Positions 53,110-61,018 of a stretch of 64,000 nucleotides of DNA are shown here, piece after piece; the stretch's first letter is position 1, and each line of letters begins with the position of its first letter. The translations under genes and the position numbers were made by a program. Origin of the DNA: Miniimonas arenae. GTDB taxonomy: Bacteria > Actinomycetota > Actinomycetes > Actinomycetales > Beutenbergiaceae. A model generated the notes under the pieces. The model searched no databases and had not been told where the DNA came from. It worked only from the letters and a program-made list of their open reading frames with translations. Location of the stretch: contig NZ_VENP01000001.1 of NCBI RefSeq assembly GCF_006351005.1, positions 124,001 through 188,000 of the forward strand. The letters run 5' to 3'.

Positions 53110-55143
53110 ATGACTGGCGCCGAGGCCCCCACCCCGAAGGACCACGGCCGGGAACGAAACCCGGCCCAGGCGGGGAGTACCCGCAGACCGGCAGCACCGC
53201 CGCCGCCCGCACAGTCCGGACCCGAGCGCCCTCGCTCCACGCCCGCGACGCTCGCGCAGCTGGTCCGCTGGGCCCGCCCCGCCATCCCCCGGATCGCGAT
53301 GGGCGGCGTCGCCGCCCTGCTCGCCAGCCTCCTCGCGCTCGCGATCCCCCAGGTGCTCCGCGCGCTGGTCAACGGGCCGCTGCTCACCTCCGGCTCGACG
53401 CGGGGCGTGGTCCAGGCCGCCGGTCTCGTGCTCGTCCTCGGCGTCACCGAGGCGGTCCTGGTCTGGTCCCGCCGCGTGTTCGTCGCCACCCCCGCCACGC
53501 TCGCCGAGCACGAGATGCGCGTCTCGCTCTTCGACCACCTGCTCGACCTGCCCGCCTCGTTCCACGACCGCTGGTCCGGCGGTCAGCTCCTCTCCCGGAT
53601 CATGGGCGACCTCTCGGCCGTGCGCCGGTGGCTCGCGTTCGGCTTCGTCATGCTCGTCGTCTCGAGCGTCACCGTGGTCGTGGGCCTCGGACTCATGGTC
53701 GCGACGGCCTGGCAGCTCGGCCTGCTCTACCTCGCCGGCGCCATCCCGATGGTCGTGCTGACCTTCCGCTTCCGCACCGCCTACGCCCGCGCCGCGCGCC
53801 GCGCCCGCGACCAGGCGGGCGACCTCGCCACCACGGTCGAGGAGTCCGTGCACGGGATCCGCGTCATCAAGGCCTTCGGCCGCGGCGACGAGGCCCACGA
53901 GGACTTCGTGCGCCAGGCCGACGAGCTGCGTGAGACCGAGGTGATGAAGGCCCGCACGCTCGCGCGGGTGTCCTTCTCCCTCACCACGATCCCCGAGGCC
54001 GTCACGGCCCTGTGCCTGGGCACCGGCGTGTGGCTCGTCGTCGAGGGCCAGGCCAGCGTCGGCGCGCTCGTCGCGTTCTTCGCCACCGCGGCCGTGGTCA
54101 ACCGACCCGTCGAGGCGATCGGCAACCTCCTGGCGATGACGCTCGACGCGCGCGCGGCGACCGACCGGTACCTCGAGGTCATCGACAAGCCCAACACGCT
54201 GGCCGACCCCGCCGCGCCCGCCCCCCGTCCGGCGCCCGCGTCGCGCGAGGGCTCCACGGTCGAGCTGCGCGACGTCGTCGTGCACTTCCCGGGGTCCGCC
54301 GACCCCGTCCTCGACGGCGTGACGCTGAGGCTTCCGCCCGGCCGCACCACCGCGCTGGTCGGGGTGACGGGCAGCGGCAAGTCGACGCTCCTCGGCCTCG
54401 TCCCGCGTCTCACCGACGTCACGTCGGGTGCCGTCCTCGTCGACGGCGTGGACGTGCGCGACCTGCGCCGCACCGACCTGCGCGCCCTCGTCGCCCCGGC
54501 GTTCGAGGACAGCGTGCTGTTCTCGGCGAGCGTGCGCGAGAACGTGCTGCTCGGCGTCGGGAACGACGAGGACCCACGCGACGGCGAACCCGCCGACACG
54601 GTCGACGCCACTGCCGACGACGACGCGCGCCTCGCGGACGCCCTCGCGGCCGCGCAGGCGACGTTCGTGCGGGACCTGCCCGACGGCGTCGACACGGTGA
54701 TCGGCGAGGAGGGTATGAGCCTGTCCGGCGGGCAGCGCCAGCGGCTGGCGCTCGCCCGCGCGATCGCGGCTCGACCCCGCGTCCTCGTGCTGGACGACCC
54801 GCTCTCGGCCGTCGACGTGACCACCGAGACCGCCGCCACCGAGGCGCTGCGCACGCTGCTGCCGGGGACCACGACGCTCGTCGTCGCGCACCGGCCCTCC
54901 ACCGTGGCGCTCGCCGACCACGTCGCCGTGCTCGAGAACGGCCGCATCACCGGCACCGGGACGCACGCCGAGCTGCTGCGCGACCACCCCCACTACCGCT
55001 ACGTGCTCACGGCGCTGGCGGAGGAGCACGGCGAGCACGTGGCCGACGCCGACGCCGCGCCCGACGGCGAGGCACCGCCTCCGTACCGAGGCGGCAGCCT
55101 TGCCGGGCTGCGGTCCGGCACGCCGACGGGAGGCCGCCGATGA
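53110..55143 (+). CDS. ABC exporter half-transporter, subunit 1 (degenerate-site type)
   Basis: 677 residues. N-terminal low-complexity Pro/Arg stretch, six TM segments (ABC1 type I exporter fold, ~60-350), then the ATPase: Walker [17 protein letters not shown], signature [17 protein letters not shown], Walker [14 protein letters not shown]-loop [13 protein letters not shown]. The catalytic Glu after Walker B is Asp and the Q-loop Gln is missing ([12 protein letters not shown]), as in the non-canonical half of heterodimeric exporters such as TM287/288. Pairs with the next gene (ATGA overlap). Probably exports drugs or lipids; substrate unknown. Confidence 0.9.
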
Positions 55144-56985: not shown

Positions 56986-58968
56986 TCAGTCCTCCAGCGG
57001 CGGGTGCACGTCCGCCATCGTCCACGTGCGCCGCCGCGCCGCGACCGCCCACGTCCCCACGAACGCCGCGACGCCGACGCCGACCAGGACGAGGACCGCG
57101 CGCTGCAGCGTCTGCGGCGAGCCGCCGGTGAACGTCACCCGCAGCCCCTCGATGAGGTAGGTCATCGGCAGGTACGGGTGCAGCGCGAGCAGTGCGGGCG
57201 GCAGCGTCTGCGCCGGGTAGATCCCCGCCGACGCGGCCAGCTGCAGCATGAGCAGGACGAGCAGCACCGCCGAGCCCACGAGCCCCAGCGCGCTGCGGCA
57301 CAGGTGCGCGATGAGCGTGAACACGGCGACGGCCAGGGAGATCAGCCCCACCGACGCCCACGCGTGCACGGGGTCGAGCCCGAGGGCGACGTCCGCGACG
57401 GCGAGCAGCAGCCACGACCCCGCCAGCCCGACGCCGAGGATCGGCAGCCAGCCCGCGAGCGCGACCCGCCACGACGGCGAGCGCGAGACGAGCGCGCGGC
57501 CCGACGTCGGGCGCAGCACGAGGAACACGACGATGCCGAACACCCAGAGGGCGATCGAGAAGAAGAACGGCGCGAGGCCTCGGCCGTACACCTCGGCGGG
57601 GTTGTCCACCGTGAGCGTGACGTCGGTCGGGTCGCCGAGGATCGCGGCGTTCGCCTCGCGCTGGTCGGGGTCGAGGGCGGGAACCGCGGCCACGAGCTGG
57701 TCCAGCCCGGAGGCGAGGTCGGTGGCGCCGGTGTGCGCCGTGGTCACGCCGGAGGAGAGCTCGGCCGCGCCGTCCTTCGCCTCGGTGAGCTTGGTGGCGA
57801 GCTCGGCGGCGCCGTCGCGCACCTCCCCCGCCCCGGTCGCGACCTCGTGCGCGCCGTCGTTGAGCTCGTTCACCTGCGACTGCGCGTCACGCACGGTGTT
57901 CTGCAGGTCCGGCACCGAGCTCTGCAGCGCCTGCGCGTCGCTCTGCAGGGACTGGGCGTCGGTGTGGATCGCGTCGAGCGTCGTGCTCACCTCGGTCACC
58001 CGGGTGTCCACGCGCCCGACGGCGGAGGCGAGCGCCTCGTAGGCCGGGTCGCCGGCGAGCTCGGGGTGCGCCGCGAGCAGGTCCGCGAGTGCCTGGTTGC
58101 CGGCGTCGACCCGCGCCGTGAGGGAGTCGGCGCCGGTCGAGACGGTGCCCGTGAGGTCGGCCACGGCGGTGGTGAGGTCCGCGGCGCCGTCGGCGACGGC
58201 GGGGATCGCGGGCACGAGGTCGTCGGCGATCGGGTTCACGACGTCGGCGATCTGCTGCGTGCCGTCCGCCACCTGGGTCGCGCCGTCGGCGACCTGCGTC
58301 GCGCCGTCGGCGAGCTGGGACGCGCCGTCCTGGGCGTCGACGAGGCCGGACGCGAGCGCCGCGGCACCCGTGTCGGCGGTCGCGAGGCCGTCGCGCAGCT
58401 GTGCGGCGCCGTCGTCCGCCTGGGCGATCCCGTCGCGCAGCGTCGCGAGGTTGCCGTAGACCGACTCGAAGTACGCCTCGGTCGCCGCAGAGTTGATCTG
58501 CTCGTGCAGCGTGGCCTGGACCGTCTCGGCCATCACGCCGATCACGTACCCGTTGGCGTCGTTGCGGCGCATCTCGACCTCGGCGCGCTGCGGCGTCGCG
58601 TCGGCTCCCGAGGCCAACCGTGCCGAGAAGTCCTCGGGCACGGTGATCGTGAGGTAGTAGTCACCGTTCTCGAGGCCGGTGGCGGCGTCCGCCGCGTCGG
58701 TGAAGACCCAGTCGAAGATCGGGTCGTCCTTGAGGTTCTGCACGACCATCTCGCCGGCGTCGACGGTGCGGCCGTCGACCTCGACCGGCTGGTCCTCGTT
58801 CACGACCGCGACGGGGATCTGGTCGAGCTTGCCGTACGGGTCCCAGTTCGACCACAGGTACAGCGCCCCGTAGAGCGTGGGGACGATGAGCAGGAAGACC
58901 AGCGCGATCCGGTGCAGCGGGCGGTGGTGGCGGGCGATCTCGGCCCACGCCAGGCGGACGGTCCTCAC
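56986..58968 (-). CDS. YhgE/Pip domain membrane protein (ABC-2-like)
   Basis: 660 residues. One N-terminal TM segment (RIALVFLLIVPTLYGALYLW), a large external domain with DPYGKLDQIPVAVVNEDQPV, then a helical stretch (~180-430) of repeated seven-residue units such as DGATQVADGATQVADGTQQI and DGAAELATKLTEAKDGAAEL, and five C-terminal TM segments (SIALWVFGIVVFLVLRP, ALAGWLPILGVGLAGSWLLL, ...). Family members are phage-infection proteins and type VII-like or lipid-export ABC-2 proteins; the role here is unknown. GTG start overlaps the stop of the ATPase gene, so both form a unit. Confidence 0.9.
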   Translation of the reverse strand: MRTVRLAWAEIARHHRPLHRIALVFLLIVPTLYGALYLWSNWDPYGKLDQIPVAVVNEDQPVEVDGRTVDAGEMVVQNLKDDPIFDWVFTDAADAATGLENGDYYLTITVPEDFSARLASGADATPQRAEVEMRRNDANGYVIGVMAETVQATLHEQINSAATEAYFESVYGNLATLRDGIAQADDGAAQLRDGLATADTGAAALASGLVDAQDGASQLADGATQVADGATQVADGTQQIADVVNPIADDLVPAIPAVADGAADLTTAVADLTGTVSTGADSLTARVDAGNQALADLLAAHPELAGDPAYEALASAVGRVDTRVTEVSTTLDAIHTDAQSLQSDAQALQSSVPDLQNTVRDAQSQVNELNDGAHEVATGAGEVRDGAAELATKLTEAKDGAAELSSGVTTAHTGATDLASGLDQLVAAVPALDPDQREANAAILGDPTDVTLTVDNPAEVYGRGLAPFFFSIALWVFGIVVFLVLRPTSGRALVSRSPSWRVALAGWLPILGVGLAGSWLLLAVADVALGLDPVHAWASVGLISLAVAVFTLIAHLCRSALGLVGSAVLLVLLMLQLAASAGIYPAQTLPPALLALHPYLPMTYLIEGLRVTFTGGSPQTLQRAVLVLVGVGVAAFVGTWAVAARRRTWTMADVHPPLED

Positions 58969-60086
58969 GGCTGCGGCTCCTCGGGGGTCTCGCGGATCGA
59001 CTGACGGCGGGTCGGTGGGGGGTCCTGCGGCCCGCCGTCGGGCGCGGCCTGGGGCTGGTCGGCGTGCGCGCCGTCGGGCGGATCGGACTGGTCGGGGTGC
59101 GCGGCGTGCCGCGGCTGGTCGCGGGAGAGGCGGATCACGGTGTCGGCCCCGAGGGTGAGCTCGTCCAGGGTGGCGGCCACGACGACCGGCCCCGAGCTCG
59201 CGACCTCACGCGCGATCTCCCAGATCCGCCGGCGATCGTCGACCTGCAGGTCGGCCGTGACGTCGTCGATCACGACCAGCTCGGGTGCGCCGAAGGTCGC
59301 GAGGACGAGGTGCGCGGCGCGCTGCTCGAGCGCCGGGAGCTCCGAGACTCGCGCGTGCGGGTCGAACGAGAAGTCCAGTCGCTCCCACCACTGCTCGACG
59401 TGGTCGAGCGCGCGGTGCCGGTCGACCCGGGCCCAGTCCGCGGCGTCGCGCACGTTGTGTCGCAGGGTGAGCTCGGGGTCGAGCCCGACGTGGCCCCCGA
59501 TCAGCGCGACGGCGACTCGCGAGCGGTACCCGCGCAGCGCCGCGCCCCGCGTGCCCGCCGCGATCCGGCGCTCGCCGAGCGTCACGCTGCCGGCGGTCAC
59601 GCGCATCCGTCCGGCGAGCGTGAGCAGGAGGCTCGTGCGGCCGCTCCCGGCCGCCCCGACCACGGCCGCGACCGAGCGCGGGGCGAGCTGCGCGTGGACG
59701 CCGCGGAACACCCAGTGCCGCGGCGTGCGGACACCGAGCGCCTCGACCACGACGGCGGGCCTCGCCTCGTCCTCGCCCGCACCGCCGGAGAGCTCGTGCC
59801 CCGCGGCGTGCCGGTGCGCGGGCGGCGCCTCGAGCACCGTGGTGCGCGCGCGGTCGTCGCCCTCGTCCGGCCGCGCGGGAGGCGGCACGACGGCGGTGGC
59901 GGGCTCGGCGGCGGCGGGCTCGCCGTCGGGCGACGCGACGGCGGTGGCGGGCTCGCCGTCGGGCGCGGCGACGGAGGCAACCGGCACGGCGGTGGCGGGC
60001 TCGCCGTCGCGCGACTCGCTCTCGAGTGCGACGGGCGTCTCGTCGGACTCGTCGGTCGGCTGCGTGGGCTCGGGCGAGGAAGTCAC
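58965..60086 (-). CDS. ABC-type ATP-binding protein with degenerate motifs
   Basis: 373 residues from GTG 60086. About 115 N-terminal residues are low complexity with repeats of DGEPATAV-type. The ATPase domain is recognisable (VVGAAGSGRTSLLLTLAGRM; YRSRVAVALIGGHVGLDPEL; PELVVIDDVTADLQVDDR; VVVAATLDELT), but the Walker A Lys is Arg (GSGRTS), the signature is SELPALEQRA and not LSGGQ, the Glu after Walker B is Val, and the H-loop His is Thr/Leu. ATP hydrolysis is doubtful. Encoded just upstream of and overlapping the YhgE/Pip gene, so it is its likely partner. Confidence 0.85.
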   Translation of the reverse strand: MTSSPEPTQPTDESDETPVALESESRDGEPATAVPVASVAAPDGEPATAVASPDGEPAAAEPATAVVPPPARPDEGDDRARTTVLEAPPAHRHAAGHELSGGAGEDEARPAVVVEALGVRTPRHWVFRGVHAQLAPRSVAAVVGAAGSGRTSLLLTLAGRMRVTAGSVTLGERRIAAGTRGAALRGYRSRVAVALIGGHVGLDPELTLRHNVRDAADWARVDRHRALDHVEQWWERLDFSFDPHARVSELPALEQRAAHLVLATFGAPELVVIDDVTADLQVDDRRRIWEIAREVASSGPVVVAATLDELTLGADTVIRLSRDQPRHAAHPDQSDPPDGAHADQPQAAPDGGPQDPPPTRRQSIRETPEEPQP

Positions 60087-60904: not shown

Positions 60905-61018
60905 TCGGGTGGGGCGAGGTCGGGTCGGGTGGGGCGAGGTCGGGTCGGGTGGGGCGAGGTCGGGTCGGGTGGGGCGAGGTCGGGTCGGGTCGGGTCGGGT
61001 GACGTCGGGTGCAGTCAG
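60905..61018. repeat. 20-bp G-rich tandem repeat between aminotransferase and SDR genes
   Basis: Four exact units TCGGGTGGGGCGAGGTCGGG (60905-60984) followed by a run of CGGGT pentamers and degenerate copies to about 61018. The plus strand has many runs of three or four G with short spacers and can form G-quadruplexes; the mRNA of the flanking minus-strand genes carries the C-rich strand. Confidence 0.88.

Follow-up and report, generated by a model that had tools for sequence, protein, structure and literature searches.

A degenerate ABC nucleotide-binding domain kept beside YhgE/Pip genes of actinobacteria: a probable pseudo-ATPase

ATP-binding cassette (ABC) transporters in which a degenerate nucleotide-binding domain (NBD) is paired with a consensus one are well known, TM287/288 and TAP among them; the degenerate domain in these systems normally keeps an intact signature motif that serves its partner's site. 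YhgE/Pip proteins of Firmicutes are phage receptors and parts of type VII secretion systems; neither type VII EsaA/YueB nor firmicute Pip is known to have a dedicated NBD. Here we analyse a stretch of 64,000 nucleotides from Miniimonas arenae (contig NZ_VENP01000001.1, positions 124,001 to 188,000; hereafter the window), in which a gene for a YhgE/Pip membrane protein of 660 residues (56986-58968; both genes and all their features lie on the minus strand) is preceded by a gene for a protein of 373 residues carrying a degenerate NBD (58965-60086). We refer to the latter as the pseudo-NBD.

The reading that we favour, and consider likely, is that the pseudo-NBD represents a conserved family of pseudo-ATPases: ABC NBDs beside YhgE/Pip that would be non-hydrolysing by the known ABC mechanism and would act as structural partners. 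It is argued from the distribution of the gene pair, from the joint loss of catalytic motifs across the family, and from phylogeny and selection.

The gene pair and its linkage

The window pseudo-NBD matches Pfam ABC_tran (PF00005) over residues 128-278 (E 2.4e-11; 44.8 bits against a cut-off of 25) and is, judged by its sequence, still an ABC NBD. An earlier note on this DNA had stated that the Walker A lysine, the signature, the glutamate after Walker B and the switch histidine were all replaced, and a residue-by-residue inspection confirmed each of these substitutions. The Walker A position reads GAAGSGRT (residues 144-151; 59634-59657), with arginine for lysine at residue 150; the Q-loop region, ALIGG (59493-59507), lacks glutamine; SELPALEQ (residues 248-255; 59322-59345) stands in place of LSGGQ; Walker B is VVIDDV (residues 271-276; 59259-59276), in which aspartate replaces the catalytic glutamate, a conservative change; the D-loop region is ADLQ; and in the switch region, VVAATLD (residues 302-308; 59163-59183), TLD takes the place of the usual THD and Leu307 occupies the aligned histidine column. 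The NBD domain (residues 106-325, the stretch used for folding; 59112-59771) follows an N-terminal extension, about 105 residues long (1-105) and rich in Pro, Ala and Glu, whose repeats (59913-60008) comprise two copies of DGEPATAV and three of DGEPA in all.

The pseudo-NBD gene overlaps the YhgE/Pip gene by the four bases GTGA, a stop/start overlap at 58965-58968, as the earlier note had reported. By its profile matches the product of the downstream gene is a full member of the YhgE/Pip family. It contains the N-terminal domain (TIGR03061; 58456-58926; E 1.7e-55, 187.2 bits against a cut-off of 96.15), a region of LxxG heptad repeats in five stretches (TIGR03057), and a C-terminal membrane domain (57028-57645) recognised both by TIGR03062 (E 3.4e-53, 180.3 bits against 102.2) and, as an ABC-2-type domain, by Pfam ABC2_membrane_3 (E 4.4e-25). 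The profile for EsaA of type VII secretion (TIGR03929) gave an N-terminal match below its threshold (80.7 bits against 122), and no solved structure matched the window YhgE/Pip sequence at E <= 0.01.

A search with the single pseudo-NBD protein of 119 related genomes, 71 of which contain YhgE (TIGR03061), gave matches at E <= 1e-15 in six genomes, including its own. Three of the others are homologues from the same taxonomic family (47, 39 and 38% identity, the closest, L009, across residues 107-357) and one is from the same order (35%); all four adjoin YhgE. The sixth match (L013, genome G079) was rejected as a member, being an ordinary two-domain ATPase away from YhgE. Three loci at 24-27% identity in a single-protein contig scan were likewise set aside as ordinary ABC ATPases because they score 245-261 bits with the canonical NBD profile. 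A tblastn search of plasmid records with a GSGRT-type NBD (L118) gave no match.

The remaining members have diverged too far to be picked up by a single-sequence search at E <= 1e-15 and came to light when the DNA upstream of YhgE genes was read. With a profile built from 39 members we then searched 296 genomes of the class, 98 of which contain YhgE. The tabulation from this search covers 107 NBD matches and 90 places with YhgE (those scoring at least 138 bits, and one more in genome G300), in each case the best of a longer series. Every one of the 87 NBD matches of at least 105 bits lies within 1.5 kb upstream of a YhgE gene on the same strand, against none of the next 20, and on this ground we reject a gene order due to chance. 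Conversely, 87 of the 90 strong YhgE places tabulated have such an NBD upstream. YhgE/Pip resembles ABC-2 permeases; at these places the motor expected of such a permease is nearly always present yet dead, and in other places it is joined to a motor of another type. A dead motor beside YhgE/Pip makes the question of how these proteins are energised a testable one.

Among 24 genomes of the taxonomic family to which the window belongs, the NBD (E <= 1e-28) occurs in four and YhgE (E <= 1e-15) in six, and in none does the NBD occur without YhgE. Outside the class, in the same phylum, one of 15 YhgE loci (L231) has an upstream NBD of the family, which is degenerate likewise. Overlaps by ATGA, GTGA or TTGA join 66 of 132 gene pairs.

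Motif loss and descent across the family

We aligned 110 linked NBDs, made up of 107 stand-alone domains and five full-length domains fused to MMPL proteins, minus two from loci with two pairs. The alignment was made jointly with the 30 strongest of the 96 ABC_tran matches in the window's own genome; for the tree and the motif tallies a fragmentary row (L156) was removed, leaving 109. The Walker A lysine column holds Arg in 64 of the 110, Lys in 16, Pro in 13, His in 10, Gln in 4 and other residues in 3. The SGG of the signature, the catalytic glutamate and the aligned switch histidine are jointly missing in 109 of 109, and 93 of these lack the lysine too; glutamine occupies the Q-loop column in none. 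The replacements at the lost motifs are themselves conserved: the signature position carries the pattern [LIVM]-x-x-[LVIT]-[EDQ] in 61 of 109, and the glutamate position an aspartate in 58 of 110.

Canonical domains of the same genome behave differently. The 30 strongest keep Lys in 30 (partly by construction, the frame having been picked by a GK[ST] match), SGG in 27, Glu in 29 and His in 28; in a second control, the next 40 domains, chosen blind to motifs, the counts are 40, 27, 37 and 35. Joint absence of SGG, Glu and His was seen in none of the 30 and in one of the 40, a fragment.

The earlier note had asked whether the GSGRT type of Walker A is conserved among homologues next to YhgE/Pip, and had taken close homologues with normal GKS/T and LSGGQ motifs as the sign of a single decayed gene. 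The arginine form is conserved: GxxxxGR[ST] occurs in 44 of 109 and GxxxxGK[ST] in 16. The closest homologue, L009, reads GPAGSGKT and is without SGG, the glutamate and the aligned histidine.

In a tree built without the motif columns, a single branch splits the 109 linked NBDs from the 30 canonical ones (Shimodaira-Hasegawa-like approximate likelihood ratio test, SH-aLRT, 99). The window protein clusters with L009, L010 and L011 (SH-aLRT 97), and five changes on this tree suffice to account for the Lys, Arg and other states of Walker A.

The P-loop motif is gone from one clade, which comprises 31 rows: GxxxxG[KR][ST] is matched by none of its members, compared with 60 of the 78 other rows. 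Examples at the Walker A position are AETEQRPT and GPPGTGHT, the latter with its glycines kept and His for Lys. When 29 linked NBDs that lack the motif are aligned, 11 columns show no variation, D82, P89, E101, P161 and R163 among them. Pfam ABC_tran is matched at E <= 0.01 by only seven of these 29; the joint profile of all 29 nonetheless matches ABC ATPases of known structure, with EcfA the best (E 2.4e-8), and the best 60 of its 77 matches are all ABC proteins. Generic annotation would thus label members of the family as ABC ATPases or, for 22 of the 29 at that threshold, leave them unconnected to Pfam ABC_tran.

The ratio of nonsynonymous to synonymous substitution (dN/dS) has a median of 0.33 in 25 pairs drawn from 25 of the 31 loci of the P-loop-lost clade, and of 0.33 in the other 343 pairs, which include MMPL-fused domains. 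The sole pair above 1 is formed by the two NBD pieces of locus L156. The pseudo-NBD is under purifying selection, P-loop-lost members included. Together with the single clade and the YhgE/Pip linkage, this upholds the view that the gene is kept and is no single decayed copy. The earlier note had offered two alternatives, that the protein is a structural partner incapable of hydrolysis or that it belongs to an ATPase subfamily of its own. A distinct NBD subfamily stands, with the residues of the known hydrolysis mechanism gone from all 109 members, and the structural role is what we infer.

MMPL fusions and possible roles

The family extends beyond the stand-alone gene, and the missing Q-loop glutamine, the ADLQ of the D-loop region, the large P-loop-lost clade and the occurrence of the same domain in fusion with MMPL pumps all go further than the earlier note. 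Three ARRANGEMENTS were found among 161 distinct YhgE genes, a non-exhaustive sample that leaves out many YhgE places below about 115 bits: a stand-alone NBD beside 107, an MMPL protein with an NBD-like C-terminus beside 25, and neither beside 28. The remaining gene (L181) follows an MMPL gene that showed no NBD tail; this may be the ancestral arrangement or the outcome of still more decay. Two of the fusions (L155 and L063) were tested against Pfam MMPL (PF03176) and matched at E 1.1e-87 and 1.1e-85; a TetR gene lies beside one of them. The helical subdomain that bears the signature is missing, in an alignment read by eye, from 18 of the 25 fusions, and a domain without it cannot form a normal ABC site. 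As a lead only, a custom profile found TetR-like genes in 59 of 91 loci of at least 6 kb and in 22 of the 25 MMPL-fusion loci.

Among the 28 YhgE genes with neither neighbour, one is at a contig end and 16 form tandem YhgE-YhgE pairs in eight loci (L054, L055, L057, L060, L062, L067, L068 and L082), beside which an NBD of the family was not detected. These pairs are perhaps heterodimers. Other classes of the phylum also have YhgE places in pairs, with a few kilobases between the two.

Since some YhgE genes lack an adjoining NBD, and since the domain can be fused to MMPL and lose its signature subdomain, the lasting role of the pseudo-NBD would seem to be contact and not chemistry. We propose that the two proteins are co-translated and that the pseudo-NBD binds to YhgE/Pip from the cytoplasmic side, where it could serve as a structural clamp or assembly partner. 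Members with a P-loop of the GxGR/KT type, the window's included, may hold nucleotide or phosphate, either as a fixed ligand or as one that is sensed. If transport occurs, its energy would come from elsewhere; the fusions suggest a proton-driven MMPL pump as the source.

A tentative extension of this proposal is a hybrid exporter, in which the pseudo-NBD would be a docking adaptor between an MMPL (RND) pump driven by protons and YhgE/Pip, whose heptad repeats form a long stalk; we consider it possible and no better than that. Adaptor and pump would be one polypeptide in some lineages; in others, the window's among them, the adaptor would be separate and any pump would act in trans. ATP hydrolysis would have been abandoned because the motor had been swapped. 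A clue to the cargo may come from Saccharopolyspora hirsuta (PMC9782250), in which cholesterol raises 28 genes, including a YhgE/Pip gene (3.82-fold) and an MMPL gene (3.33-fold) whose locus tags neighbour each other; the authors interpret the YhgE/Pip gene as one for export of lipid components. A second clue may be that actinobacterial crtR regulator genes are often clustered with an mmpL-like gene (PMC7432914). Another paper assigns a Streptomyces coelicolor protein to the Pip family and remarks on ABC-2 homologues (PMC3924187). A search of open-licence papers showed neither a degenerate NBD with YhgE/Pip nor an MMPL-NBD fusion, absence there being no proof.

Several points weigh against the pseudo-ATPase reading that we favour. 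The alignment columns are inexact: four P-loop-lost members have a histidine one column off the switch column, glutamine lies within two columns of the Q-loop column in four of 109, and that column is unsteady in the second control too, with Gln in 23 of 40. The tree drew all its canonical rows from one genome and came from a quick search. Contact between NBD and YhgE is inferred from gene order only, and the correlation between NBD and YhgE distances (Mantel r 0.88, reached in 0 of 999 permutations), which in itself speaks for the favoured reading, is also expected from shared vertical descent. Only seven of the 25 MMPL tails match Pfam ABC_tran by themselves, and the shortened ones were called NBDs through weak profile matches (22 to 59 bits) together with their alignment to full-length tails. 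A single-sequence AlphaFold2 model of the window NBD domain was too poor to help (mean predicted local distance difference test score, pLDDT, 37.4). Finally, part of the family keeps the Walker A lysine (16 of 110) and the Walker B aspartate (72 of 110), so that nucleotide binding is likely in those members and weak, unconventional hydrolysis possible.

The last point leads to a rival in which ATP, or some other nucleotide, is bound by the P-loop members but not hydrolysed, its binding setting the state or the assembly of YhgE/Pip. The GxxxxGR[ST] and GxxxxGK[ST] forms, the retained Walker B aspartate and the small number of Walker A changes on the tree all favour such a nucleotide-sensing switch, which we nevertheless regard as doubtful as a general account: purifying selection still maintains the 31-row clade without GxxxxG[KR][ST] alongside YhgE, and the retention of that clade means that binding is not the function common to the whole family. 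The conserved replacements could instead signal an active ATPase of a new chemical kind, with the aspartate after Walker B and an L-x-x-L-E motif taking over from glutamate and LSGGQ, as their frequency at the two positions would allow. That is improbable in our judgement, given that the switch histidine and Q-loop glutamine columns are changed in all 109, that the lysine is mostly arginine, and that relatives without a P-loop motif occupy the same genomic place.

Might a canonical NBD encoded elsewhere hydrolyse ATP at one site of an asymmetric dimer, with the pseudo-NBD as its degenerate half? The genome has many canonical NBDs, and in one locus (L058, 4513-5239, minus strand) an NBD that scores as canonical, at 190.7 bits, lies directly upstream of the pseudo-NBD/YhgE pair on the same strand. 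L058 is the sole such case among the 91 YhgE loci of at least 6 kb: no more than four of them (L058, L062, L221 and the window) gave an additional canonical NBD with the canonical profile, and in the last three it is farther off, on the opposite strand or part of a locus with tandem YhgE genes. The degenerate half of an asymmetric pair normally supplies an intact signature, yet SGG is gone from 109 of 109, and we think this explanation very unlikely. We give almost no credence to a single gene decaying towards loss. Its motifs are indeed broken, but the 373-residue frame is open, the same degeneracy recurs in many genera and in L231, the members form one clade, and dN/dS is about 0.33. A recent pseudogene is ruled out by a frame without internal stop.

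Neighbouring genes and comparison with known systems

Other features of the window lie close to the pair. A short-chain dehydrogenase gene (PF00106; 60106-60879, minus strand) ends 19 bases upstream of the start of the pseudo-NBD gene, in the same orientation, and the two may be transcribed together. Between the dehydrogenase gene and an aminotransferase gene there is a tandem repeat (60905-60994) of 4.5 copies of a 20-base unit, TCGGGTGGGGCGAGGTCGGG, with 98% matches. On the far side of the YhgE/Pip gene, two adjoining ABC exporter genes run on the plus strand from 53110 to 55143 and onward to 56954; the first has LSGGQ together with LVLDDPLS, in which Asp stands for the catalytic Glu, and from these motifs the two probably form a heterodimeric exporter, one site of which is degenerate.

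Set beside ABC transporters, the pseudo-NBD belongs to the same domain family as the NBDs (PF00005) that work with ABC-2 permeases, and it is likewise paired with an adjoining gene of ABC2_membrane_3 type. It departs from them in that the catalytic motifs of the subfamily are replaced, the P-loop motif is absent from one clade, and the signature subdomain from most of the forms fused to MMPL. TM287/288, TAP and CFTR offer the precedent of an NBD that has lost catalytic residues and is kept by selection; those systems lose one site of two and have a consensus partner, whereas here an adjoining canonical NBD is found in L058 only. The fused proteins differ from MMPL (RND) lipid exporters (PF03176) in ending in a full or shortened pseudo-NBD, after which YhgE/Pip follows. 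And in contrast to type VII EsaA/YueB and firmicute Pip, 132 of the 161 actinobacterial YhgE genes sampled carry a pseudo-NBD or an MMPL-pseudo-NBD fusion beside them.

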